This document shows positions 3,201 through 16,500 of a stretch of DNA of 64,000 nucleotides, one piece after another. The first letter of the stretch is position 1. Each line of letters starts with the position of its first letter. Source of the DNA: Beroe forskalii (lineage: Eukaryota > Ctenophora > Nuda > Beroida > Beroidae); contig WFMF01000053.1 in the NCBI GenBank assembly GCA_011033025.1, forward strand, positions 558,001-622,000, read 5' to 3'. The notes below the pieces were generated by a model that saw nothing but the letters and a program-made list of their open reading frames with translations, did not search any database and was not told the DNA's origin. The position numbers and the translations under genes are program-made.

Positions 3201-6200
3201 GGCCTGCTAGTTATCAAATAAGATCCTTCTAAGCCTTTATATCTCTTCAAATTCATCACCGTGAATGTTTTTACTTGTAAAAGTATAAAATATGAATTGA
3301 TTTTGTCGAAAATAATAAAATTTTAGTTTGATTGAAAAAATTTTAGTTTGATTGAAAACCAAAAAATAACGGAGTAACGGTTTATCTAGATGAAAAATTT
3401 GTAACCGATAATGGAAAGCCTAAAATCTACCACATATTTATGAAGAGGTGTTACAAGAAATAGCCTCCATACCCGCCCTTCACCCTGAATTCAAATGAAA
3501 AACAGTTAACACGCCGTTCTTTTAAAGGCTACATAATGAAGCAGTCAACAACGTATCAGAAAGCACTCGAAAGGATCATAATCTGCACGTGCAGAATATC
3601 TGTTCCCATAGCAACGGCGCGACTTAGCTCAGTTTAGCCTTCCTATCTCCTGATAGTCTCTTGGCAAGCTCAAATTTAATTGTATATTGGGTTTTTAAAG
3701 CCTGGCATAATATGTCCCGCTTAGCTTAGCCCTTGGATTGCTGCCGAGGGGCGGTCAGAGGACCATAACCTTGCACTGGTATTCTACCTAAAATATGGGA
3801 GCTCAGAAAGACATAATTCACGTGCTCTGTAGCAGGTTACGAAGACAGTTCCTAGCCTGGATCAATGAAAAAACAAAATTGTCCAAAATCAGTATGAGAA
3901 TCGGTTGGCAGAATTTTTAACATCATCCCGCAATCAAAACGTAAAAAAGTCGCATGGTTTAGCACGACTAAGATTAACCGAAGGACAACTCTTCACTCAG
4001 CACCTTCATAGAACTGAATATTTCATTTCGTTGATAACCGATCGGAATTTTCGATGCGGTAAAAAGTATCCAATTACTTTGATTTGGTGGTGTCTAAAAT
4101 TTGCGAAAGAGGTGCTGTGTACCGTGTAGCAGCGCCGAGTGAGATTTGATTGGGTTTTTGTTGGCCCAAGGCCCAAACAGCCCGCTAGTTTTATTTATTA
4201 TTTCTATATTTTCAGGCCACGAAACCAAGGCGCGAAGAATTGATTGAATGCTCGTGTAAAAAGACTTTCCAACGTCGTAATATGGCAGCTCATGTTCAGA
4301 GGCATTGCCCTCAGACCATTAATCTTACTGATGAACAGAAGAGTCAATTTGGAAAACGGATCTTAAAATGCACTGTATCAAATGATGCTAAGATACCCTG
4401 CTTTCTGAAAGATTGTCCATCCTTGCTATCCCCAGGAAACTATTCTGCGCATTTTTATCCAAAGGCGAAGGAATTGAACAAACTCCAGAGAGAGCACAAA
4501 ATGATTGCTGAAACAGCTAAATTATGTAAAATCCAGCTAAAGAAATTGTCCCAAGTCGATCACAAGTTAACAGCAGCAGAAGCACTTGAAACTATAAAAG
4601 CAAAGGCCTTCACCTGGGAAATTGAAGAAGGAAATTCTCGTGCAACCTCCAGTGCTGCCCATCCTGCAGATAGTGCCCATAATCCAGTCCATGTTTCTGA
4701 TGATTCTCAAGTCAAGGATCTTGATAACAACCCTGATGATGACTGTAACGATTCGGTGCTGGCTTCCAGTCTACAAGATCACGCCCCTATTCCTTCTTCA
4801 TATGGAATTACTGATTTGAGCTCCTGCACCGCAACAGCAGTCCCATCAGATGCAGGAAGTTCCAGTCAACATTTTTCATATACAAAACTACTCTACGATG
4901 AAGAAATGCTTCTTAGCGTAGGACAGGAAACTGATCTGATATCACAAATCTGGAAAAAATCTGAGGAGTCAAAGGTTGGAGATAAAGTGACTAACTGGCC
5001 AATTTCAGAAGAACTGGTAAACCCGAAAGCCACTGCCAGCCAAGCTGACATAAAACTCATGACGAAAGAAATGGGTTGGAGTGATAAAGATGCGATCCAC
5101 CACATCATAAATAAGTTTGTTGACTACTCCAAAGAAGTTAAACAATATCAGGATAAAACATTGGTAGGGTATCAATCAAAACTGAAATTATCTATATTCA
5201 GTTATATGAGTTGTATGGGAGTACTAAGTCATGAAATCATATCGGAGAAACATTTATTAAATGTAATCAGTTATTGCGACAAAACGTTGAATAGCAACAA
5301 AGGGGCCAAGACTAAGGAGTCATACCTTTCTGCACTCAAGGCCTTCACATTGTGGCTGCGTTTAGCCAAATATATTACTAAAGACGAGAGTGATAATGTC
5401 CTAACACATCTCACCGAGGCTATAAAAGCGAAATCAAAGTAAGTGGAATCAGGAAAAAAGGAAAAAGTCCTCTTATTTCTATTTCACAAAGTTACTGTAT
5501 ATTAGAAACATTTATGATTCAATCCAAGTGATTTCTTTCTTTAACAGAAGCCGAAGAAAAAATTGCACACTGTTTTCAGTTTCCTGGAACATAGCCTTCC
5601 ACATATTATTAGACGTAGGCTCTTTCATTGAATGCATATCCGATCAGGCTCAACGATCCAGCTTAACCACTCTATAATTACAGGCCAATCCAGAAACACC
5701 AAGTGGTGAAGAGGTCCCAGACAGAAAAGAATCTTCTAAAACTAAACGAGCTTGCCAAAATCACGTTGAATGAAAAGTGGTAAGTCCAAAACTACATCAT
5801 AAAATGAAAAGATTTGTCCAACGGAATTTTGATTTAAGCCTCAGAAAATATTCGATTTTGAATTTTATCGACCGGGAGAAATCATCAAAAATTGGCTCCT
5901 TGAATTTAATAACTCGTGCAAACCTCATAGGAAATCAAACTACTTAACTAGCAATGCCTGCAACGTCTCCGGTATTTCCGGAAGTGAACGCGTGTGTTTC
6001 AATCTGCACATTGTAATTTGCTCCTGTGACTTGCCATGATGCTTGACATGGGACAAAAAACTGCAGATAAACGAACTTCATAATTTTCATGAAGCACTCT
6101 GTTACAGGGCAGAGATCCCGAAGGATATTGAGGCTGATTCAGACGAACTCGAATATTTCACGCGCGCACGAGGGGCTTTGTATCTATCAATGCTAACCCT

Positions 6201-9200
6201 ACGAAGTGGGAGGTCGGGTGAGCCCTTGCTTCTTGTGGACGACGATGTATTAAATGCAGAGTCAATGAAAGATTCAGCTGGGAACGTTTTCCTGCATAAA
6301 TACTGGTAATGACTCAGATGTCTCATAATACCAAATCTGCACGTATAGTCTAGATGCTTTTACTAATGTGATTTGGCGACTCAATTATTTATTTGCGATC
6401 CCATCATAATACTTTAATAAACGGAATGGATAGCTTTTATTGTTTTGTAACCAGATGAATTATAGTTAATAAATTTTTCAAGCCTCTGTTTGAAATTAAA
6501 GGGTTAGTACTTACTTACTTACTTAGTATGCAGCTATTGCTGGGCTATTGTGGTCTAAGAAAAAGTTAAAACTTGATTGATGATGGTGTGTAGAATAGGG
6601 ATTTCTTCGTCAATTTAATCAGAAATAGGACGAGTACAGTGGTTACGAACATCTTCAATTGTCACAATTAAAACGTCGTGTTCTTGCGTAATATTTCAAT
6701 GAATATATTATCATTCATCATAGTCATACATTCTGAGAAGTTAATTGGTTAGAACATACAACTGACACACAACATATTCATATCACTAATATCTTATCTT
6801 AACTAAATCTATAAATAAGTACTATTCAGTGCATTTTTTAATAAATTAACTAAATTTAATTAGTACTTATTTATAGATTTAGTTAAGATAAGATATGTTG
6901 TATGTTCTTATCAATATACTTCTCAGAATGTATGACTATGATGAATGATTTATTCGTTGAATTACGCAAGAACACGACGTTTCAATTGTTACAATTGAAG
7001 ATGTTCGTAACCAATCTTATCGTCATATTTCTGATTAAATGGATTGATGATAATCTAAACTCTTTTCATATTTCAGCCCTAGACCAGACAGATCTCATGG
7101 AAAGGCTAAAACCTTCCACACATATGGAGCTGCACCAGAAATCTTTGTCACACCCCAGCAGCATGAGGTAGCAAAAGCATTCATAAAAAGATACTCAAAG
7201 ATCCGCAATGAAGGATGTACACAGCTTCTTTTTAGTGCTAAGACGGGAGGATCAACAAACACACAGAACAAGAAATCGTGGGTGAGTACGATGTACATTC
7301 CGTCACTTACAAATAAAAAGGTCATAACACGAATTAGCCAATTTTGAGGGTACTTGTAAGCGTGCAATAATTTGTATTATATAACGATCGTTATATAATT
7401 CTTGCTCCGTTAATTTTTGTTGTATAACGGCTTCAAAAATTGATTTTAAGGGTCAATTAATAATTTTCATAAGATTTTAAAATTTTCGAAATTTTGGGGT
7501 GTGATAATTTTTCCAGGGGTGTGATAACTGTACAGTTATCACACCCCTCAAAGGACAGTTAACACACCCTTCCAAAAATTATCACACCCCAAAAAATTAA
7601 AACTTTAGAATTTTTTGATTCGTATTTATCTACTATGTAAAATCATCTATGATCTGACTTTTCAGACAATGCTCTCACTCCATTGCGATACATCAGTGTA
7701 TACATATTGCGTTATCTTGTTTTTGCTTCATGTATACTCGTTAGTCGTTATATGAGCCGCGCACGCACGTACCACTCCAGTGCAGATAACCACAGTTCGA
7801 TATAAGGGCATATTGTAATCTCAGATATTATCTGATATTTGCACGAGTGCAATATCAAAATATCTGAATATGCACGAGTGCAATATATATCTAAACGAAG
7901 GTAGATAGGGAATTGCTATATGTGCACTGGTTTATATTGTGACCGTTTTGTGTCGTGGTATAATACGCTAATCTAACTCCTCTAGTGGTATTGTTGCACT
8001 AATTGCACTCGGCTTCTCCAAGTGAAATTAATGCTCTAATCAAACTCGACTCCGCCTCGTGTGATTAGTGCTTAAATTAGCACTCGACAATGTCTCGTGC
8101 AATAACAGCAACAATACCACTACGGGTAGTCAGATAATAGATAAGCGTATATTAGCGCATTCCCAGCCATGATCTATGTGTATATTACTGCATTCCCAGC
8201 CATATCAGCGTAAAGAGTATCACATTTTCCTGAAAATTCACCTAAAGTCGAAATAAGACATTATGGTGCACTTTCGTGAAAAATTTTGGCGTGGTGAGTG
8301 CTCACTTTGTAACGTTTTTAAACATCCTAAAAATAAATACTGTTCATAACAAGCTCATTCGGGGGAGCTGTACACGTGTCGCTTCGTTGACGAATTTATT
8401 ATATAATAATAATAATTTAAACTTTTATATTATAGTGGCACATCAACTTAAATTAATGCACAGCTGTGCCACGAGAACAGATTCAACAATAAAAGCAATG
8501 ACAGTGCTCCAAATAACTTAATATACAAATAATTTAAAGTTAACTAAAAAGCTGGAGTCATGCTGAGATTAAAGCACTGTCAGAAAACACAAAGCATAAT
8601 TTATACAAAAATGAATTGCAATAAGTTAAGTAATATAAGTTAAATATCAAATGCTATTTTGAATAAATAAGTTTTAAGAGTTGATTTGAAAGATTCTATG
8701 GAGGAACAAGTTTTAAGTTCTAAAGGTAAACAGTTCCATAGTTTAGGACCAGACTTCTGGAAAGATCTTTCACCCATATGAGATAAAACTCTAGGTTCAT
8801 ATAAGGAGATTGAGTGATTAAAATCTACATATTTGAACATTGATTCCAAATATTCTGGAGCAAAGCCATTCAAACATTTGTATACTATTAGGAGAATTTT
8901 AAAATGAATACGAAATTGTACAGGAAGCCAATGTAACTCTTTCAGTGTATCTCCAAGATGATCATGTTTATATAGTCCTACAACAGCTTTTGCAGCTGCA
9001 TTTTGAATGAGCTGTAGTTGATTGATAAGTTGTTCATTAACACCAAAGTATAATGCATTACAATAGTCTAGTCTGCATGCAATGATGCTGTTAACCAATA
9101 GTTTCATCTGATCTGTAGTGAAAATAAAACGCTTCTTGACAACATTTCTGATGAGGCGAAAGCAGTCCTTTTTTAGAGCTAAAATGTGAGTCTTGAAGGA

Positions 9201-12200
9201 GAGATTGCTGTCAAGTGTGATTCCAAGGTTTCTGGCACTTGAGACAAATCTCACACATACATTTCCAGGTAAGATTATACCCCCAATGTTAATTTGATTC
9301 AATATGTTTTGGGGGCCAAAAACAATTACTTGAGTCTTTCCAGGGTTAAGTTGTAAAAAGAAGCTTATCATCCAATTATGAATGGTCTTAAAACAGTTTA
9401 GTATTCTAATAGTAAGAGTGTCTGCTTGTTCACTAGGCTTAAAGCTTTTATAGACTTGATGATCATCTGCATAGCCGTGAATTGTGAATCCACTCTTTTT
9501 TATACAACCATAAAGGGATCGTATGTAGATATTGAACAAAATAGGACCCAATACAGAGCCTTGAGGAACTCCAAACTGAAGAGTGATTGATTCACTCACA
9601 ACATGGCCAAGCCTTGTTCTCTGAGTTCTGCTTGTCAAGAAACTCTTGAACCACTTCAGTGCAACCCCTCGGATTTTAATCTCCTTGCTCAAAATTTCAA
9701 GTAGCTTACTATGATCAACTGTGTCAAATGCTGCAGAGAGGTCAAGCATCATAAGAACAGTTGCCGATTTTTGATCACAGGCTATGAGCAAATCATTGGT
9801 AACTTTAAGCAGAATGGTTTCAGTGGAATGGTTCTTTTTATATGCTGATTGCTGAGAGATGTTCATGTTGTTCTTATCAAGATGATCATTCAGTCTACTT
9901 AGTACTACACGCTCTATGAGTTTTCCAAGAAAAGACAGATTTGATATTGGGCGATAATTCTTCAACTCCTCAGGATCAAGCTTGATATCCTTGAGAGTGG
10001 GGATTATGTCAGCAATTTTCAACCCTTCTATTGATCCAGTTGATAGAGATTGGTTAACTAGCTTACAGAACACTGGTATGAGTAGATCAATATTTTCTTT
10101 AACAATAGCTTCTGGTAAAAAGTCTGTTGGTGCACACTTAATGCCACTTTCCTTGATTATACCCTTTAGCTCTTCTTCAGTGCATGGAGTAAACTCATTC
10201 AAGTAATCACTTGTGAAAACTGGTTCTATCTTAGTGACATTATCATTGCTGATGGTTGGAAGTGATTCACGAATTTTGGTTATTTTCTCATTGAAATAGC
10301 TATTGAACTTCTCACTTAGTTGCACAACATCTGAATCTGAGGGCAGCATATTTTCCTGCTTTCTATCCAGCTCCTTGTTCACCACATTATAAACTGCTTT
10401 TAGATTGCCTTTGTTCTTTTCCAGCAACTCTCTATAGTATTGCTTCTTTTTCAAATTTGCCATTATGGTTGTTTCAGAGCGTATTTCTTCATAGAGTGTT
10501 CTATGATACTCACTTTTGCTCTTTTTCTTCTCAGCTTTCCTCCTTAGTTTGCGCTGGTTCTTATATTCTGAATCAAACCAAGGTGCATGGGCCACAAATG
10601 ATATTGTTTTCTGAGTGAGTGGTGCATGCTGATCAAGTAAACTGTTCATGGCTTTGAAAAAGTAGTTACATGAATCACTGAATTGGGAGTTCATCTCAAA
10701 GCTTGAAAGTGACTGAGATATATCAGAGGATAACATATTTTGGTCTACACTTCTTAGGTTTCTGGTAGTTATGATCTTTGGTTTTTTGAGACATATGTAA
10801 AATTCTTTGGTTGAACAAAGGATAGGATAGTGGTCACTCAATAGAAAATCATTTTTGATGTACATGGAAGCATGCTCTAAGAGATTACTATTGTCAAACA
10901 AAAGATCAATTGTCCCTTCATTGATGTGAGTAGGTTTATCAACTATTTGTCTGAATCCATACGAGTGAGCCATCTGCTCAAGTTCAGAGGAATAGTCATT
11001 AATTGATTCCATGTGTATGTTAAAGTCTCCACCAATCAATATGTAATCATACCGCATGCTAGCCTCCCCAAGCAAATTTTCTAGTTCTTCAAAAAACTTT
11101 TTTGTGACTGGTCCAGTTCTGTAGACTGAAATAAACAGTATCTTCATATCAGCTGCACATGTTATCAAGGCACAAACATGTTCAAATGTGGTGACCCCCT
11201 GAATTTTAAGAATTATTGGATTATACTGAAGGCTGGATTTCAACAGTAGTGCAGCACCACCTCCTTTTGTTTCAGATCGATGCTGATGTATAATAGCATA
11301 ACCATATGACTTGATATCAGCAGTGATTGCATTTGAGTGGTCAGTGAGCCAGGTTTCTGTAAGGAAAGCAATGTCAACAGCTTCATCCTGAAGTAAACAC
11401 ATAGTATCTCCACATTTATTGTTGATACTGCGTGCATTCCACACAAGGATTTTCAAGTGAGACTGGGCAGCCAGTTGAGGTTTTGCTAGTTTTTTGAGTA
11501 GTATGTCAAGGAGGCTTTTAATTTTTCCTGTCTTGCACGATACGAGGGGCAGCTGCTTGAAAAGGCAGGATGCTTTAGATCATCACCAGTTTTTCCAGCT
11601 TTTGAACAATTACAACACTTATATACTGATTCAACATTTTGGGTATCCTTGTGAGTGCAGTTACGAGTTTCATGATCACCAGAAGAACATATTCCACAAC
11701 AAGTAGATTGAGAACACTCTATAGCATAGTGGCCAAATCCTTGACACTTATGACAACGCTTGATGTACAGTTGATCATAAACAGGACATGACAAGAGTCC
11801 ATAGAACAGCCTATTATTGTTATTCTTTATAGCATGTCTGATGTCATCACTCACTTTGATAATTGCTTGTTTCATATTTTCATTGGACTTTAAAGGTTTC
11901 ACAGACAGAATTTCAAACACAGAGGAGTTATTTTTCAGACAGTCTCCCAAGTATGGGTTTTGGCTGAGGAGAGTGTTATATATGGTAGCAGCATGGTCCT
12001 TATTGAGCTCCTTGGGGATCCCTACCACTGAAATAGTGGGATTCTTCTCCTTGGGCTCTTTAAGGAGGTTAGGTGTAATACCAGATGTGGATAGTTTTTC
12101 CTTGAGATCATCCCTTGACTTTTGGTTAGGACAAACAATAACAGTATCACCATTTTTGTTAACAAACTTCTTGTGAACCTGAATACCATTTTTTATCACA

Positions 12201-15200
12201 GTCTGCTCTAAAGATTGCCCATCAACACTGGCATCCTTAGCTACAACAAGAAGGGATTTGACTCTATTTTTATCTAGCCAAACATTTCCTGCTGATTGTT
12301 CAGCTGCTAAATTTGACTGTGCTGGGATGCTAGGGTTTTGGTTTATTGTTGATGATAGAGTTGGTGGAGACATGGACACTGGAGCAATTAAACCAGAAGA
12401 ATTATTGGAAGAACATTGTAAGACAGGTTCAACTTGATGGCTGGGTGACTTTGTTATGACCTCTTTGAGCAACTTTTTGATTTCAGTAACATCCTCTGCC
12501 AAATTAGTAACACGATTATCAATGATATTCACACGGTCATTAGTGTCGCATGTAACCTGATTCTCATGTTTAGTGAGGCAAAGGTCACAAACGAAAACAA
12601 AGTTCCCAAATCTTTTATTTTTACTTTTGTTTGTTGCATTTTGATTAAACCCAGTGAGAAATGATTTGGTGCATGCATTATCAGAAAAGTAATCTTTCTT
12701 ATTATCTTTAAGTTGGAAACATAAAGCATGAAAGTTTACTTTACACAATAAACAGCATACCGAATCATCAGCAGTACTTTGTGCATTGCAGTTGTTGCAA
12801 ACACCATCTCCATTTATTTTCCGGATATCTTGGGATGATCTGCCAGAATCATTGTCATGGTCATCATCATTATCAGTTGCCTGAAACAGTGACATCCTAT
12901 CTGAAGAACCCCAGAAGAGAAAATTTCGGCTAGGGTTTCTGACAGGACAAGCAAAGTGCTTTCACTGTTGAGTATAAGCTCTGCAAGCAGAACTTTAGAC
13001 AATAAATCCGAGGAAATTTGACTGGGGTTCCTCAAATTTGATTGTAATTAGTAGTGTTGTTAAGTTTAAAACATATTCTACCTAAATTAGTAAATACTTT
13101 TACCGCATTTTTTCCCTCTCCAAATCGCATTTTTGTTTTACAAAAAGGCATTGTAGAGGGTTAGCTGAGATCGTATTTTTGAGAGGATCGGGTCGACAAA
13201 AATTAGGACGATGTGTATACTACCTTTATCCGTACTGTTAATTCTGAAAAGGCCCCGCAAATTTGAGGGAGATATGTCCACAAAATTTGAGGGAGATGTT
13301 CACAAATTTGAGGGAGATGTCCACATATTTGAGGGAGATTTCGTCAACAATGTGCCATTACAGGCACAAGGCGCATTAACCAACTGCTCCTTTATAAGTT
13401 TCTAAAATGACTCGCGCCGGTGCATTCTCTCAGTTTGGTGTAGTGACATCGTTGATCGTATGCAGTTCTCACAGCCGCTATAGCCTGCAGCTATTCGGGT
13501 TCAATGCTCCGGTGATCCTAACCTTGAAAATTTTGATTCCTTTTTTGAGCTTGATTTATGTCAATGATAAGACGTGGCCCAGGCCCTTGAATAAGTAGGA
13601 ATAAGTAGGAATAAATATCTATCAACACTGTTAAGGAATTTTTCATCAATATCTTATTGGATTTCAAGTGAACAAGTGATCTTGACATTGAGCAATTTGA
13701 GTGCAATCAATGATGACCATGTCTTTCGATGAAAAATTTGTCTCGGTAATCTTATCAGAATCGTCAATCTTGAACAGTTTGAAGAACCTATCAATTCATC
13801 AATCTTTTCCATGACGTAATGAAATCATGTAAAGGGACGGTGCATGAATATTAACCAGAAAGTGCAACAATTGTACAATGGTTTGTCATTCGACATCAAC
13901 ATCAAAGGAAATGTGACGCGTAACAAAAATGGGGTAATTGGTAATGAAATGGCGCGCAAACAAAATAACCAATTATGCACCTCCCAGGCGTGTTTATGCT
14001 ATGCATTCAAAAACCCTATATTTAAATAGGCAATCTGGCAATAAATTATTAAGCACTGTAGTGCCGAAATCCGGATTTATTACATTTACGCACTGAGGGT
14101 CATAATGAGAGGTTTTGTAACTAGCAAAAATTGCAAACCGCGATATTATGCACCGAGCGCGAAGCGCGAGGGCATAATAACACATTAAGACCGAGGCCGA
14201 AGGCCGAGGTTTTAATGGAAGGTTTGCAGTTTTTGCGAGTTACAAAACCGAATTATGCAACGACAATACATTTAGGCATATATTTCGTAATTATGTATAA
14301 TTCAAGCAAGAATATGAGAATAATAGAATATGTAGTGTTATTGGCTTGTCTAGTATTTGAGCTATTGTAATAAGAGCAGCTACTGTATCCTTCAGTGTGA
14401 AATCTGCGGTCTGTCACCCCAGTGTTCATTTTTAACACCTCTCCCTGCTATAGTAAGGTCACGTTTTGAAAAACACTGGGGAACAATGCCAAAATGGTTT
14501 TATTATCAACTGTAGTTCCACTTTTTTGGCACTGTAGTTACACTTTTTAAAAAGTGGAACTGTTTTAGCGTGCATAATGGGTATAAAGGAGCACTGCGTA
14601 AACCTCCTTAGAAGTTGCATAATATAGAGTTACACAACGAATAAGTGTGAAGTAACATGATTTATGCCACGAGCGAAGCGAGTTGCATAAATCGCATTAT
14701 TCACCGAAGCCGAAGGCTGAGTTGAATAATGATTTGTTTTCAACGAGGGCGTAGCCCGAGTTGAAAACAAGCTGTTACTTCATACTTATGAGTTGTGTAA
14801 CGATATTATTCACCAAGTGTACAAAAGTACAAAGCTTTGAGCCTTTAAAAGGCTGAGGTTTTTAGCATTACGCACAGTTCACAGCAGAAAAGGACGTTCT
14901 GTAGTATCACTTTTTTTGGTGGAGAGCAATTATCTACTGATCAGTCAAGGTAGCAGTGTGTCAGCTCTCCCAGCAGAAAAGGACGTTCTGTCGTATCACT
15001 TATTTGACCAAAGTGTTGAATAACATCATAAAAATGGCGAATAACACGGTGTTAGAGTTGAATAACATGGTAAAAGTGTGCAATAATACCAAAAGGGTGG
15101 AGTAATACGACAAAAAACTCAGAATAACACGTTTATATTCAACCGCAATAACCCCACCACATGGTGAATAATAATTTATTCCACACAGTTGAGCAAACTG

Positions 15201-16500
15201 TTCCTTCGAATCTTAATTTAAAACATTTCCTTGTGTTTGAAAATATTGCCATTTTTTCGAGTAAAGTCGGTGCATAATTAGATAATTCAGTTTAATAACT
15301 CGTAAAAATTACTAAACTCAGCATTAAAAAACCTCGGCTTTTCAATGCCATATTACACACTCGGGCCTTCGGCCCTCGTGTGTAATATGACGTTTAGTAA
15401 TTTTTACTCGTTACTAAACCCTTCAATCTACAAGTACAAAGAGTTCTACGAATTGGCGGAGCGCGCGCAACGATTCTGCACGTGTATCGGGCCGCATTTG
15501 CCCACGTGCCATTAGAGCATTAGATGCGCGTGTTAATTCAAGTACGTTGGAGAGGGAAATAAAGCGCCTGCAAAACAAAGCCAAAAAGAATGAAGCCTGC
15601 AGGCGCAATTCTTGAACTTTCTATTATCAATTTAAGTTTTCAAATCCCTCCTTATTACTTTATTAAGTAACCTTTTCCCTCCAGATCAAAAGTGGCCTGA
15701 AGTACCTTGACTTGGAGGAAATAGATACAAGTCGAGAGGCTGAAGTAACACCAACGTTGATAAGGGACAGTACCATTTCAGCAACAATAGATGAAGCCCA
15801 ATCTGATGAGAAGATAAGGTACATCTTACCTATAATTTGCCGTCGCATTGTCGTTGCGTAAAATGATACCCTCGTTCACCATCTTGCTGTCAGATTATAA
15901 ATGAGCATATTTTATCATTATACTATTATAGTATTGATTGGAAATAATTTTATGTACTATATCTGGGTTAACCGATTACCGAATTATGAGCAGAGCAAGT
16001 TACAAAAAGAAACTATAGACATGATTATGGTGCAGGAAAAAGATTATTTTCAATTGTAATGTGTCGGGCGCAATGCCATGTCATGACAGGCGTTCAATCT
16101 TTCAACGACAGGCGTTTAATGAATTTGCTCGTGCGATAAAATGCACGTGCGACTCACGATCACGTGACATGCACGACCTCAATTGTATCATTAATCCAGA
16201 ATCAATAGATGATAGTCGATAACTGTTTAATGGGAGAGGGAAATTGAAGCGCTCGCAGAATTAAGAGAAAACGAGCGCATTTCTTGTTACTTACCTTTAT
16301 TCACTTATACTTACAGGAACCTCCTGGCTGAAAGCGCACAGCACTCCAGTGGTTGTGCAAACAAGTACTATAACCACAGTAGGAGGGCAGGCACTAAGCA
16401 AGCCATTGCTGCGCTTGATGCTTATGAAAGATGCAGAGACAACGGGTTTGAGCTTGAGGAAACTGTTTATAGGCGCTCGAAGCGACCTCGGGCAAAATAA
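144..16500 (+). CDS. Tudor / zinc-finger / tyrosine-recombinase-like protein, 5' end outside the window
   Basis: Eleven exons join with consistent phases: 144-249, 1682-1749, 2026-2112, 2264-2350, 2510-2596, 4216-5438, 5684-5779, 6108-6305, 7077-7281, 15685-15818 and 16317-16500 (TAA). All have AG acceptors and GT donors. The total is 2475 bases, giving 824 visible residues. In order the protein has a Tudor-like fold (residues 1-58), a triplicated acidic/polar 29-residue segment (59-145), a CxC...H...H zinc-finger-like segment (from about 154), a helical region that may be the recombinase N-terminal domain (about 430-585), and a YR-type catalytic domain with RSGE (R620), TPTLIR (R746), H773 and Y782. 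YR domains cut and rejoin DNA through the tyrosine. The multi-exon structure suggests a host or domesticated gene, or an intron-bearing YR element such as a Crypton relative. Upstream exons lie outside the window. The 8.4-kb intron 7282-15684 is loaded with a LINE and cruciforms. The function is inferred from motifs only. Confidence 0.8.
790..794 (+). mobile_element. Helitron-type 3' terminus (hairpin + CTAG)
   Basis: A CAGGCCC/GGGCCTG stem with a short loop at about 772-789 runs straight into CTAG|T. Helitrons end in a short hairpin followed by CTRR and insert between A and T. This is one of four similar ends in introns of the Tudor/YR gene. Confidence 0.55.
810..1592 (+). mobile_element. 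Non-autonomous Helitron-like element
   Basis: The 3' end at 1571-1592 is CCCCAACGGGCCTGCTAG|T. The body from about 1380 is shared with 3070-3211 and 3840-4189. The 5' limit is unclear because the sequence at 640-720 is a second copy of the left part (GTGCGGGCGCA). The 118-codon open frame inside (1020-1376) is interrupted in the related copy, so I do not call it a gene. Confidence 0.5.
1682..1749 (+). CDS. Tudor-like domain, second half (exon)
   Basis: The acceptor is tttcag at 1681 and the donor is CAG|gtacag. Joined to the previous exon, it completes a GAC codon and reads FKVIFDDGYRRKV followed by GHLIRV. This is the typical strand 3-4 pattern of Tudor domains (V-x-F-x-DG...V). The phase fit and the domain continuation across the join are strong support for the model. 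Confidence 0.75.
1920..2640 (+). repeat. Tandem triplication of an exon with its flanking intron
   Basis: Three nearly identical units start at about 1921, 2158 and 2396. Each contains CTCTGAAAATCACTTTCTGG, a pyrimidine tract, the 87-bp exon and its 5' splice site. Near-identity of the intronic parts points to a recent duplication or to ongoing homogenisation. Confidence 0.9.
2026..2596 (+). CDS. Three tandem copies of one 87-bp phase-0 exon
   Basis: Exons 2026-2112, 2264-2350 and 2510-2596 read as identical here. Each is 29 codons, rich in D, T, Q, E and S, bounded by a gccag acceptor and a GAG|gttggt donor. The flanking intron sequence is duplicated as well, in units of 238 and 246 bp; the third unit carries an extra 8 bp. 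Because the exon is symmetric (phase 0 at both ends), one, two or three copies can be included without breaking the frame. No known domain is recognised; it looks like a disordered linker between the Tudor and zinc-finger parts. Confidence 0.72.
2640..2950. repeat. Minisatellite with an inverted middle block
   Basis: Units of about 22 bp containing CTGACACCAGTCTG and TTATCA run forward at 2640-2710, inverted at 2711-2800 and forward again at 2801-2945. The array can fold into a long hairpin. It lies in the intron after the exon triplication. Confidence 0.85.
3009..3069 (+). repeat. GC-hairpin element, copy 1
   Basis: A GCCTGC...GCAGGC stem is followed by GCAATTCTTG. The sequence after the end is TTGTTGCGTTAAATTGG, matching the uninterrupted Helitron copy at 1459, so the 3' edge is defined. 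The left edge is degenerate. Confidence 0.6.
3070..3211 (+). mobile_element. Helitron-like 3' part, truncated by a GC-hairpin element
   Basis: It is nearly identical to 1459-1592 and ends in the same GGGCCTGCTAG|T at 3200-3211. The left side is replaced by GC-hairpin copy 1. Confidence 0.55.
3577..3690 (-). mobile_element. Inverted Helitron-like fragment
   Basis: This is the reverse complement of about 861-966, including GCACGTGCAGATTATGATC and CGCGCCGTTGCTATGG. It shows that the family is present in both orientations in this intron. Confidence 0.5.
3840..4189 (+). mobile_element. Diverged Helitron-like element
   Basis: It is similar to 1240-1592 throughout but more diverged. It ends CAGCCCGCTAG|T at 4179-4189, 27 bases before the acceptor of the exon at 4216. 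Confidence 0.5.
4216..5438 (+). CDS. Zinc-finger plus recombinase N-terminal exon
   Basis: The acceptor is ttttcag at 4215. The donor is AAA|gtaagt at 5439, so the stop a few bases later lies in the intron. The 407-residue segment begins with CSCKKTFQRRNMAAHVQRHC, a CxC...H...H/C finger, and a second possible Cys/His cluster follows (CFLKDC...H). Residues about 95-220 of the exon are low complexity (S, D, A rich). The last part (KTLVGYQSKLKLSIFSYMS through NSNKGAKTKESYLSALKAF) is helical and resembles a core-binding or SAM-like N-terminal domain of a tyrosine recombinase. That last assignment is inference. Confidence 0.75.
5684..5779 (+). CDS. Linker exon before the YR catalytic domain
   Basis: The acceptor is attacag at 5683 and the donor is TG|gtaagt. 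Phase 2 in and phase 2 out fit both neighbours. The peptide is basic and helical (KHQVVKRSQTEKNLLKLNEL), like the linker between the core-binding and catalytic domains of YR proteins. Confidence 0.7.
6108..6305 (+). CDS. YR catalytic exon with box I arginine
   Basis: The acceptor is gttacag at 6107 and the donor is TG|gtaatg. It encodes GALYLSMLTLRSGRSGEPLL, matching the helix-turn containing the box I arginine of tyrosine recombinases (pattern L-x-x-G-x-R-x-x-E). The predicted catalytic arginine is R620 of the visible protein. Codons are split so that a Trp is completed at the entry junction. Confidence 0.75.
6600..7050. mobile_element. Foldback MITE with long inverted arms
   Basis: The left arm (about 6600-6800) is the inverse of the right arm (about 6850-7045). 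Shared anchors are TCATAGTCATACATTCTGAG with its complement, and TTAGTTAAGATAAGATAT. A single arm of the same family is at 24340-24485. It has no coding capacity. It lies just upstream of the exon at 7077. Confidence 0.75.
7077..7281 (+). CDS. YR catalytic domain, central exon
   Basis: The acceptor is atttcag at 7076 and the donor is TGG|gtgagt. The exon enters in phase 2, leaves in phase 0 and encodes 68 codons, including HGKAKTFHTYGAAPEIFVTP and a helix (QHEVAKAFIKRYSKI). In related proteins this region carries the beta-hairpin lysine and the segment before box II. The right arm of a foldback MITE ends about 20-30 bases upstream of the acceptor. Confidence 0.68.
7492..7593. repeat. Nested palindrome with GGGGTGTGATAA
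   Basis: The core 7515-7548 is a perfect 34-base palindrome around TGTACA. An outer pair (7492-7513 with 7573-7593) repeats the same GGGGTGTGATAA word. It is intronic. Confidence 0.8.
7825..8122. repeat. Multi-arm cruciform cluster (first)
   Basis: Hairpins with the core GCAC-GA-GTGC occur at about 7838-7860 and 7867-7890. A 15-bp perfect outer stem then pairs 7983-7997 with 8108-8122 and encloses three inner hairpins. The clearest inner tip is GCAC-TC-GAC-AAT-GTC-TC-GTGC. The tandem TC/TC is GA/GA on the other strand, as in the clusters at 14-15 kb. Confidence 0.7.
8640..11456 (-). CDS. LINE ORF2: endonuclease-reverse transcriptase
   Basis: This ORF encodes 938 residues. The endonuclease motifs are VWNARSI at the start, LTETWL, GGGAALL, GGDFNIH and LLSDHYPI (about residues 1-215). 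The reverse transcriptase motifs are KNYRPISNLSFLGKLIERV, LDLSAAFDTVDH, GVPQGSVLGPILFNIYI and the catalytic YADD near residue 660. The C-terminal part carries LHWLPVQFRIHFKIL, a recurrent signature of CR1/L2 elements. The enzyme nicks target DNA and primes reverse transcription there. There is no RNase H domain. All catalytic motifs look intact. Confidence 0.93.
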   Translation of the reverse strand: MKILVWNARSINNKCGDTMCLLQDEAVDIAFLTETWLTDHSNAITADIKSYGYAIIHQHRSETKGGGAALLLKSSLQYNPIILKIQGVTTFEHVCALITCAADMKILFISVYRTGPVTKKFFEELENLLGEASMRYDYILIGGDFNIHMESINDYSSELEQMAHSYGFRQIVDKPTHINEGTIDLLFDNSNLLEHASMYIKNDFLLSDHYPILCSTKEFYICLKKPKIITTRNLRSVDQNMLSSDISQSLSSFEMNSQFSDSCNYFFKAMNSLLDQHAPLTQKTISFVAHAPWFDSEYKNQRKLRRKAEKKKSKSEYHRTLYEEIRSETTIMANLKKKQYYRELLEKNKGNLKAVYNVVNKELDRKQENMLPSDSDVVQLSEKFNSYFNEKITKIRESLPTISNDNVTKIEPVFTSDYLNEFTPCTEEELKGIIKESGIKCAPTDFLPEAIVKENIDLLIPVFCKLVNQSLSTGSIEGLKIADIIPTLKDIKLDPEELKNYRPISNLSFLGKLIERVVLSRLNDHLDKNNMNISQQSAYKKNHSTETILLKVTNDLLIACDQKSATVLMMLDLSAAFDTVDHSKLLEILSKEIKIRGVALKWFKSFLTSRTQRTRLGHVVSESITLQFGVPQGSVLGPILFNIYIRSLYGCIKKSGFTIHGYADDHQVYKSFKPSEQADTLTIRILNCFKTIHNWMISFFLQLNPGKTQVIVFGPQNILNQINIGGIILPGNVCVRFVSSARNLGITLDSNLSFKTHILALKKDCFRLIRNVVKKRFIFTTDQMKLLVNSIIACRLDYCNALYFGVNEQLINQLQLIQNAAAKAVVGLYKHDHLGDTLKELHWLPVQFRIHFKILLIVYKCLNGFAPEYLESMFKYVDFNHSISLYEPRVLSHMGERSFQKSGPKLWNCLPLELKTCSSIESFKSTLKTYLFKIAFDI
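11486..12895 (-). CDS. LINE ORF1: PHD-finger and zinc-knuckle nucleic-acid-binding protein
   Basis: This ORF encodes 469 residues. The N-terminal part has a Cys/His array (CNNCNAQS, CCLLCKVNFHALC, CDLCLTKH; about residues 33-108), typical of the PHD-like finger in ORF1 of CR1/L2-type elements. The middle has an RRM- or gag-like part (TISVVGIPKELNKDHAATIY). The C-terminal third has CCHC-like knuckles: CHKCQGFGHYAIEC, CGICSSGDHETRNC and a third CCNC cluster. The product should package element RNA. The ATG at 12895 opens the longest frame. Confidence 0.88.
   Translation of the reverse strand: MSLFQATDNDDDHDNDSGRSSQDIRKINGDGVCNNCNAQSTADDSVCCLLCKVNFHALCFQLKDNKKDYFSDNACTKSFLTGFNQNATNKSKNKRFGNFVFVCDLCLTKHENQVTCDTNDRVNIIDNRVTNLAEDVTEIKKLLKEVITKSPSHQVEPVLQCSSNNSSGLIAPVSMSPPTLSSTINQNPSIPAQSNLAAEQSAGNVWLDKNRVKSLLVVAKDASVDGQSLEQTVIKNGIQVHKKFVNKNGDTVIVCPNQKSRDDLKEKLSTSGITPNLLKEPKEKNPTISVVGIPKELNKDHAATIYNTLLSQNPYLGDCLKNNSSVFEILSVKPLKSNENMKQAIIKVSDDIRHAIKNNNNRLFYGLLSCPVYDQLYIKRCHKCQGFGHYAIECSQSTCCGICSSGDHETRNCTHKDTQNVESVYKCCNCSKAGKTGDDLKHPAFSSSCPSYRARQEKLKASLTYYSKN
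13100..13400 (+). repeat. Dispersed repeat with GAGGGAGAT minisatellite (copy A)
   Basis: Four units of about 21-24 bp (AAATTTGAGGGAGATGTCCAC) lie at 13255-13345. They are preceded by a TTTTTGTTTTACAAAAAGGC block and GTTAGCTGAGATCGT. The same order occurs inverted at 50980-51250, and the left block recurs at 54900-54975. No coding capacity is seen. Confidence 0.7.
14111..14249 (+). repeat. Multi-arm cruciform with GNA-triloop arms (second)
   Basis: Outer arms 14111-14139 and 14221-14249 are complementary at 27 of 29 positions. Two inner hairpins have tips CC-GA-GCGC-GAA-GCGC-GA-GG and ACC-GA-GGCC-GAA-GGCC-GA-GGT. Both have a C(GAA)G triloop and a tandem GA/GA mismatch at the same place, although the stems differ. 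Confidence 0.8.
14629..14801 (+). repeat. Three-armed cruciform with GNA-triloop arms (third)
   Basis: Outer arms 14629-14657 and 14773-14801 pair over 29 bases, with an internal GA opposite GA. The three inner arms have tips AC-GA-GC-GAA-GC-GA-GT, GA-AGCC-GAA-GGCT-GA and AAC-GA-GGGC-GTA-GCCC-GA-GTT. Each tip sits on its own AT-rich stem. The layout is cloverleaf-like but is much larger than a tRNA and lacks tRNA boxes. Confidence 0.82.
14882..15180. repeat. Short repeats: GCAGAAAAGGACGTTCTGT and degenerate AATAACA units
   Basis: AGCAGAAAAGGACGTTCTGT occurs at about 14882 and 14971. From 15015 to 15180 degenerate units of about 25 bases start with GAATAACA. No gene is seen. Confidence 0.55.
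15291..15420 (-). repeat. Multi-arm cruciform, opposite orientation (fourth)
   Basis: Outer arms 15291-15318 and 15393-15420 pair over 28 bases, with TC opposite TC. The main inner arm at about 15351-15389 has the tip CAC-TC-GGGCC-TTC-GGCCC-TC-GTG. On the minus strand this gives the same GA/GA plus GAA arrangement as the other clusters. Confidence 0.78.
15551..15614 (+). repeat. GC-hairpin element, copy 2
   Basis: GGGAAATAAAG is followed by a GCGCCTGC...GCAGGCGC stem and AATTCTTG. It ends 70 bases before the acceptor of exon 15685. Confidence 0.7.
15685..15818 (+). CDS. YR catalytic exon with box II arginine
   Basis: The acceptor is ccctccag at 15684 and the donor is AG|gtacat. The exon enters in phase 0, matching the end of the exon at 7281 across an 8.4-kb intron. 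It encodes VTPTLIRDSTISATID, which fits the box II segment (S/T-x-T-x-x-R). The usual His three residues before the Arg is Thr here. A GC-hairpin element ends 70 bases upstream. Confidence 0.65.
16234..16286 (+). repeat. GC-hairpin element, copy 3
   Basis: GGGAAATTGAAG is followed by a GCGCTCG...CGAGCGC stem and ATTTCTTG. Both strands of the stem differ from copy 2 but still pair. It ends 30 bases before the acceptor of exon 16317. Confidence 0.7.
16317..16500 (+). CDS. YR C-terminal exon with His and Tyr
   Basis: The acceptor is acttacag at 16316. An AG|G codon joins it to the previous exon, and it ends at TAA 16498-16500. It encodes LLAESAQHSSGCANKYYNHS, which fits the final helix of tyrosine recombinases: a His followed nine residues later by the nucleophilic Tyr. 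The tail is basic (YRRSKRPRAK), possibly a nuclear localisation signal. Confidence 0.72.

Follow-up and report, generated by a model that had tools for sequence, protein, structure and literature searches.

Insertion sequences of the IS200/IS605 group enter 3' of a tetranucleotide that is retained as the left flank, and guides at the foot of their imperfect hairpins pair with the cut sites (excerpts of PMC5934647). The repetitive extragenic palindromic (REP) sequences of Escherichia coli need two conserved stem mismatches, and only one of their strands is recognized (excerpts of PMC8266576). HINEs are non-coding, with subterminal inverted repeats and a 3' palindrome (excerpts of PMC4067079). 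The DNA analyzed here, 64,000 nucleotides of the ctenophore Beroe forskalii (contig WFMF01000053.1, positions 558,001 to 622,000 of the forward strand; the whole stretch is called the window), carries cruciform arms; these form the folded ends of short, non-coding mobile elements belonging to three families, A, B and C; a fourth family, E (185-191 bp), was found adjoining C. We assign a probability of about 0.5 to the reading that all four are non-autonomous single-strand (HUH-type) transposons that work as IS200/IS605 does, through a folded end and a DNA guide. No description of these elements, or of the motif in a transposon, was found among open-access titles and the beginnings of abstracts.

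Cruciform arms and element families

A pattern script run over the whole window found five plus-strand arms of the form stem-GA-stem-C(GNA)G-stem-GA-stem, all in 14100-14810, with loop centers at 14162, 14200, 14676, 14713 and 14752. This agrees with the initial annotation, which had placed at least five arms with this tip and GAA or GTA loops there; the loop is GAA in four of the five and GTA in one. A sixth arm, on the minus strand at 15349-15389 (loop near 15371), is the only further one in the window. The arm count is above chance: for outer stems of at least 1, 2 and 3 bp, the two strands held 7, 5 and 3 arms that combine GA/GA with a GNA loop, while 60 dinucleotide shuffles averaged 0.77, 0.23 and 0.05 (maxima 4, 2 and 1). 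The counting rule did not require the C-G closing pair, hence seven arms rather than six. The arms are nested in longer stems, forming T- or cloverleaf-shaped cruciforms with two arms in A, three in C and two in B. The elements are laid out as follows.

14107..14623, plus strand: non-coding element of family A, 517 bp, read from its folded end (GAGAGG...) and ending ...GTTGCATAAT; from multi-copy alignment and genome end counts
14111..14249, plus strand: A cruciform, outer stem 14111-14139 / 14221-14249, two arms inside; inverted repeat, DNA fold of -47.0 kcal/mol
14145..14178, plus strand: A arm 1, GA 14155-14156 / 14168-14169, inner stem GCGC, loop GAA 14161-14163
14183..14217, plus strand: A arm 2, GA 14193-14194 / 14206-14207, inner stem GGCC, loop GAA 14199-14201
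14252..14261, plus strand: A guide-like ATTATGCAAC, complementing the last 10 nt of A; its first 5 complement the TAAT-type target
14614..14623, plus strand: A 3' terminus GTTGCATAAT
14624..15172, plus strand: non-coding element of family C, 549 bp, joined head-to-tail to the end of A; from copy matches and aligned ends
14629..14801, plus strand: C cruciform, outer stem 14629-14638 / 14792-14801 and onward, GA/GA 14639-14640 / 14790-14791, three arms
14659..14693, plus strand: C arm 1, inner stem GC, loop GAA 14675-14677, GA 14671-14672 / 14680-14681
14695..14731, plus strand: C arm 2, inner stem AGCC/GGCT, loop GAA 14712-14714, GA 14706-14707 / 14719-14720
14734..14770, plus strand: C arm 3, inner stem GGGC, loop GTA 14751-14753 (GCA in other copies), GA 14745-14746 / 14758-14759
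14805..14814, plus strand: C guide-like ATTATTCACC
15163..15172, plus strand: C 3' terminus GGTGAATAAT
13972..15424, minus strand: element of family B, about 420 bp when the insertion is discounted, reading from 15424 (GAAGGG...) to 13972 (...GGTGCATAAT), with A and C lodged in it at 14107-15172; from copy alignment
15349..15389, minus strand: B arm 1, GA/GA, inner stem GGGCC, loop GAA (this copy has a damaged arm 2)
14098..14106, plus strand: target of the A/C insertion inside B, GGTCATAAT, the insertion lying just 3' of TAAT

The arms are not uniform outside their tips. C arm 2 has a single paired base directly outside GA/GA, followed by a mismatch. In B and C, a GA/GA step is present in the outer stem of the cruciform as well; the outer stem of A shows TA/GA instead.

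The status of A, B and C as mobile elements comes from the comparison of 40 fetched regions and 30 further loci. One tip pattern occurs at 586 places in the 216 Mb genome, its reversed control at none. Among 16 copies aligned to the window copy of A, the left end is kept in 14 (L021 and L023 start later) and the right end likewise in 14 (L027 and L017 diverge), with unrelated flanks; allowing up to 3 mismatches, the genome holds 143 hairpin ends and 163 other ends of A, and controls gave 0. For C, 40 of 337 candidates were scored, and 42 matches, the window copy included, have 93-100% identity over most or all of the 545-bp query; in the C copies aligned at their ends, these are precise as in A, with unrelated flanks, and a few copies are truncated. 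The C arm 3 pattern is found at 146 places within 3 mismatches, and the B arm pattern at 202 places, a symmetrical pattern counted 202 times on each strand. The claim of the initial annotation that the stems differ each time stands between arms and between families; within a family, many copies have identical stems. The outcome that the annotation had named as refuting its idea, a repeat family with identical stems, thus applies in part, and the copies are not independent.

None of the four families has a terminal inverted repeat, and the fold lies at one end only. With target duplications absent too (see below), a miniature inverted-repeat transposable element of a DDE transposon was rejected. 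The elements also form exact head-to-tail arrays, either of one family (A-A-A in L024, C-C, B-B in L019, four E in L061) or mixed (A-C in the window, A-B in L040, C-E). The element end supplies a TAAT site, and joined ends recreate the array junction. Of 18 E units, 13 follow a C, as if C-E pairs travel together, a share that is biased because C was used to fetch the loci. At L053, L060, L061 and L065, the 185-191 bp E units make up short satellite-like arrays.

Constraint on the fold of one strand

The stems are the same within a family and differ between families, with covariation. In 36 cruciforms of A and B, 106 cells had two-sided changes, compared to 38.0 (sd 6.3) in partner shuffles and 0-21 when the structure was slid, the structure having an advantage over the slid versions in that it was drawn from the fold of one of the 36. 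Two other counts from this set speak against a constraint on the fold: pairs with two-sided changes (14 of 60) exceed the shuffles weakly (11.0, with 13 of 500 attaining the count), and further pair types show no excess (30 vs 31.4). In 24 C cruciforms, all copies on the correct strand, there were 7 two-sided cells vs 1.3, in 6 of 70 pairs, and none of 500 shuffles reached either value. Kinship of the sequences inflates all these covariation counts.

The mismatched steps were followed in triloop arms containing a 2x2 internal loop within an outer stem of 4 bp or more, taken as strings from both strands of the fetched loci with the matches to the fetch pattern excluded. GA/GA accounts for 29 of 358 distinct triloop arm strings (29 of 179 hairpins), and the next commonest mismatch for 9; some of them are the same arm cut shorter, and hence not all are independent. 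Without either feature having been required, the loop is GNA in 27 of the 29 GA/GA strings vs 11 of 300 with other mismatches; C-GA-G stands on both sides in 24 of the 29. The C-GA-G context favors sheared G-A pairing. GA/GA together with GNA was seen across inner stems from 2 to 6 bp long and a variety of outer stems, and the steps and loops are on a single strand. With a genome pattern that fixed the stems and left the mismatch and loop positions open, 202 B arms were found genome-wide; in the 42 with listed sequence, GA/GA and GNA are kept in 41, the lone exception being GG/GA with loop TAA; the middle base of the loop was A in 25, G in 14, T in 1 and C in 1.

The earlier idea of the annotation that the constraint acts on the folding of one strand and not on sequence is therefore supported, by the stem covariation as well as by the coupling of GA/GA with GNA. 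The retention of mismatched G-A steps and GNA loops suggests that some enzyme reads the fold of one DNA strand. The computed folding energies of the two strands differ little, however (see below), and some of the two-sided changes could come from quasi-palindrome repair. By a rival explanation, the fold is a by-product of such repair: cruciform-templated correction, which is able to yield two-sided changes, would keep the symmetry, and the tips would go back to one ancestral hairpin, with no selection involved. The stems common to the copies of a family fit this. However, repair should erase GA/GA too, and the B arms keep it while the middle base of their loop varies; GA/GA with GNA recurs across different inner and outer stems; and the guide and terminus described below covary though distant in duplex DNA. 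We consider this explanation improbable.

The tip motif was also looked for in viruses. ACGAGCGAAGCGAGT occurs in at least 120 viral stretches, a frequency uninformative by itself because the reversed control is nearly as common (115). Of its viral matches, 15 of 124 extend by at least 3 pairs, where about 2 are expected; CCGAGGCCGAAGGCCGAGG occurs in 8 viral stretches with 9 matches, 0 of which extend by at least 3 pairs. In a few viral contigs (e.g., L166, L176), this hairpin tip is extended by 9-10 base pairs. A hairpin-ended, parvovirus-like virus as the source of the elements, the cruciform being its inverted terminal repeat, would share with adeno-associated virus a T-shaped terminal fold that has arms inside and is cut at its base. 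Such an origin is hardly credible, since A, B, C and E are folded at one end only and are non-coding with a specific target site; Parvo_NS1 had no match in the genome, though no control genome matched either.

Guide-like sequence, terminus and insertion site

The final 10 nt of each element have their reverse complement directly after the cruciform, with 10 of 10 positions paired in all four families. The guide/terminus pairs are ATTATGCAAC/GTTGCATAAT in A, ATTATGCACC/GGTGCATAAT in B, ATTATTCACC/GGTGAATAAT in C and ATTATTTAAC/GTTAAATAAT in E. The guide letters ATTAT are constant across families and are complementary to the preferred flank too, and the other five vary by family and are compensated in the terminus every time. 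In A and C, the flank with cruciform and guide, or the terminus with cruciform and guide, fold so that a small internal loop at the stem base holds the putative cut site, and the joined ends fold with the terminus lying on the guide.

On the hairpin-first strand, 67 distinct non-tandem left flanks had T at -1 in 63 cases and A at -3 in 61, and TAAT in 28, where 0.6 (0.9%) would be expected. After removal of three rows (one duplicate, two misplaced by palindrome), the values were 28 of 64 for TAAT, 62 of 64 for T at -1 and 58 of 64 for A at -3. At position -6, the flank matched the terminus of its own family in 23 of 64, vs 15.9 under shuffled labels (p 0.008), one of five position sets tried. 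The right flank begins with a purine in 49 of 58 distinct right flanks.

The other end of the element reads ATAAT in nearly all counted copies, whatever the left flank, and the 8-letter end is identical in 20 of 20 A, 18 of 23 B and 21 of 21 C copies, counts made on copies whose match reaches the end, so that altered ends may be missed. Being nearly constant despite the varying left flank, ATAAT is therefore not a target duplication. Two C insertions in copies of one palindromic repeat (L054, L069) were compared with each other: removal of the element leaves an intact site with no duplication. In the window, other B copies reveal the entry point of A and C as GGTCATAAT; 33 bp of B are gone on the right side, between two short repeats. 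Palindrome centers as a target rule, suggested by L054, L069 and L061, were tried and rejected, because only 7 of 51 joined empty sites had a score of at least 8, vs 4.8% of 2000 controls, the A rows in this test holding one extra element base. A palindromic repeat (ATTATATAACGATCGTTATATAAT plus flanks) at about 7340-7420 of the window resembles the repeat hit by C in L054 and L069.

A direct TAAT on both sides with no duplication, no terminal inverted repeat and array formation would also be expected from a Crypton-like tyrosine recombinase, whose circles would recombine with TAAT targets through a short identical overlap. The genome has 7 DUF3504 matches, 6 of them above the cut-off, and the window itself offers a candidate gene: exon-like frames at 4189-7344 (plus strand) with a Phage_int_SAM_1 domain at 4192-5439, which may encode a tyrosine recombinase, either Crypton-like or domesticated. 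About 0.6 kb past its last exon-like frame lies a decayed cruciform (7985-8120, minus strand) with the outer stem GTGGTATTGTTG/CAACAATACCAC and damaged arms, one of which still has GA/GA (loop ATT). A second end enclosing the gene was not found in the window, the terminus to the guide-like 10-mer that follows the decayed cruciform being absent below 7984 at up to 1 mismatch. Moreover, overlap exchange should sometimes carry target letters across, while the right end remains ATAAT nearly always though the left flank varies, and the one-strand fold and the guide pairing would be left with no role. Movement by a tyrosine recombinase thus appears unlikely.

Two other reading frames were noted. A long interspersed nuclear element (LINE) occupies 8640-12895 of the window (minus strand), with an endonuclease-reverse transcriptase frame and a second, upstream frame with no Pfam match; its protein has a fully named animal match in Mnemiopsis leidyi (58% identity) and one distant match named 'bacterium'. 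A galactosyltransferase-like frame of L016 has a Mnemiopsis leidyi match at 41% identity, again the one animal named in full, beside one 'eukprot' match that bears a code. Both frames make a ctenophore source of the genome probable.

Candidate mechanism and comparison with known systems

For the DNA-guided, IS200/IS605-like reading, the following course is proposed. A tyrosine HUH-type nickase would be supplied in trans, and the element would move as single-stranded DNA. On the hairpin-first strand, the 5' end would fold into the multi-arm cruciform with C(GNA)G loops and tandem sheared G-A steps, which the enzyme would recognize by its fold and not by its sequence. The first five guide nucleotides (ATTAT) would pair with the TAAT-type flank at donor and target, and all ten with the element's own 3' terminus; in this way the guide may position flank, terminus and target alike beside the 5' end, each cut falling just after ...TAAT. 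Joining of the cut ends would then yield either a circle or a copy arranged head-to-tail; alternatively, the ends would insert 3' of another TAAT. We infer the single-stranded intermediate, the HUH chemistry, the moving strand and the recognition of the fold from features that comparison of the copies supports directly, namely the elements with their ends, the fold constraint, the covariation of guide and terminus, the TAAT preference, the lack of target duplication and the exact junctions.

Several results weigh against this proposal. The folding energies of the two strands, calculated with DNA parameters, are close in A (-47.0 vs -42.7) and B (-43.2 vs -40.6), and the opposite strand is nearly as stable in C (-51.5 vs -50.6) and E (-27.3 vs -26.4); the choice of strand is based on the known stability of GNA loops and G-A pairs, not on computed energies. 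The C guide ATTATTCACC is present a second time, in C arm 2 at 14696. The guides of IS200/IS605 lie 5' of the hairpin, and here the guide is 3' of the fold. A transposase linked to the families was not found: Y1_Tnp (Pfam) had no match in the genome, with 5 of 14 control genomes matched, and Viral_Rep, like Parvo_NS1, had none, with no control genome matched. Two of the longest A copies among the matches listed (100 of the 143 and 163 ends), C274 (about 4.4 kb) and C421 (about 9.4 kb), contained a LINE in one case and no long frame in the other over the 1.8 and 1.6 kb sampled. Because Y1_Tnp was not found and the guide stands on the opposite side of the fold, the elements are not assigned to IS200/IS605.

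The genome does hold 20 Helitron_like_N matches, several in long open frames, which also speak against the proposal, and Helentron-like movement is the main rival to it. The elements would then be HINE-type non-autonomous Helentrons (Helitron2) read in the opposite direction, with ATTATGCAAC... as the 5' end and the subterminal inverted repeat ahead of a very elaborate 3' palindrome that ends replication, moved by a genomic RepHel protein. HINEs share the subterminal inverted repeat, the 3' palindrome and the non-coding nature (excerpts of PMC4067079), head-to-tail junctions and read-through are known for a Helitron (excerpts of PMC4778049), and the C-E composites at 13 loci are compatible with read-through. 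Other properties disagree with this explanation: insertion is beside TAAT, neither within TT nor between A and T; the inverted repeat starts 107-182 nt from the folded end, not 38-60; and no such cruciform lies 3' of the one RepHel (of the 20) that was read, over 2.5 kb reaching about 0.9 kb past the apparent stop. We regard Helentron-like movement as possible, yet doubtful. The RepHel frame end at C802:1511200-1513700 (L079), apparently interrupted by a repeat, is followed by a simple hairpin, CTAGAAGGCCCAACGGGCCTTCTAG.

Compared with described Helentrons, HINEs and Helitron2, the elements agree in being non-coding, without duplication, and in their subterminal inverted repeat and palindromic end (excerpts of PMC4067079). 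They differ in the target, TAAT and not TT, and in a palindrome grown to 1-3 arms on a stem; the subterminal repeats of 12-15 bp with a 3' palindrome given in the same excerpts correspond here to a 10-bp repeat and a large palindrome, with different length and spacing. A canonical Helitron, with 5'-TC, CTRR-3' and insertion between A and T, was rejected, as neither the element ends nor the sites fit. Replitrons are likewise eukaryotic HUH elements with no terminal inverted repeat and with short direct repeats at their ends; by the review's description, as far as its excerpts go, they belong to algae and land plants and make target duplications of 2-8 bp (PMC10741241). Integron attC sites resemble the present cruciforms as folded single strands recognized by structure, with varying stems and head-to-tail arrays, although organisms and enzyme are different.

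REP sequences and TnpA-REP offer hairpins with conserved stem mismatches for strand-specific recognition and are perhaps non-autonomous (excerpts of PMC8266576). The aligned ends here have no GTAG at the foot of the fold, and the elements are much larger, with GA/GA and GNA, in a genome where no Y1_Tnp was found. If the proposed reading is right, they would also offer a natural example, on the scale of a genome, of GNA triloops and tandem sheared GA steps that persist amid changing stems.

Transposition of the DNA-guided, single-strand IS200/IS605 type is known from bacteria and archaea. Tentatively, A, B, C and E might represent an animal lineage of such transposons, in which a structural code of GNA loops and sheared GA steps is read and one internal guide directs donor flank, terminus and target; families with different guides would then differ in target and build head-to-tail arrays. 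If true, this would be an animal counterpart of the IS200/IS605 process, its recognition would rest on a fold readable from sequence, and the guide of each family would make target choice predictable from sequence and checkable on real insertion sites. The likeness to IS608 and ISDra2 lies in insertion 3' of a short target kept as the left flank, with no duplication. The subterminal imperfect hairpins, the guide pairing with cut sites and target, and the joined-end circle described in the excerpts of PMC5934647 would have counterparts here as well. The differences are that the present elements have one elaborate multi-arm end in place of a hairpin at each end, that one guide, 3' of the fold, would serve both flank and terminus, and that the genome is that of an animal, where TnpA was not found.

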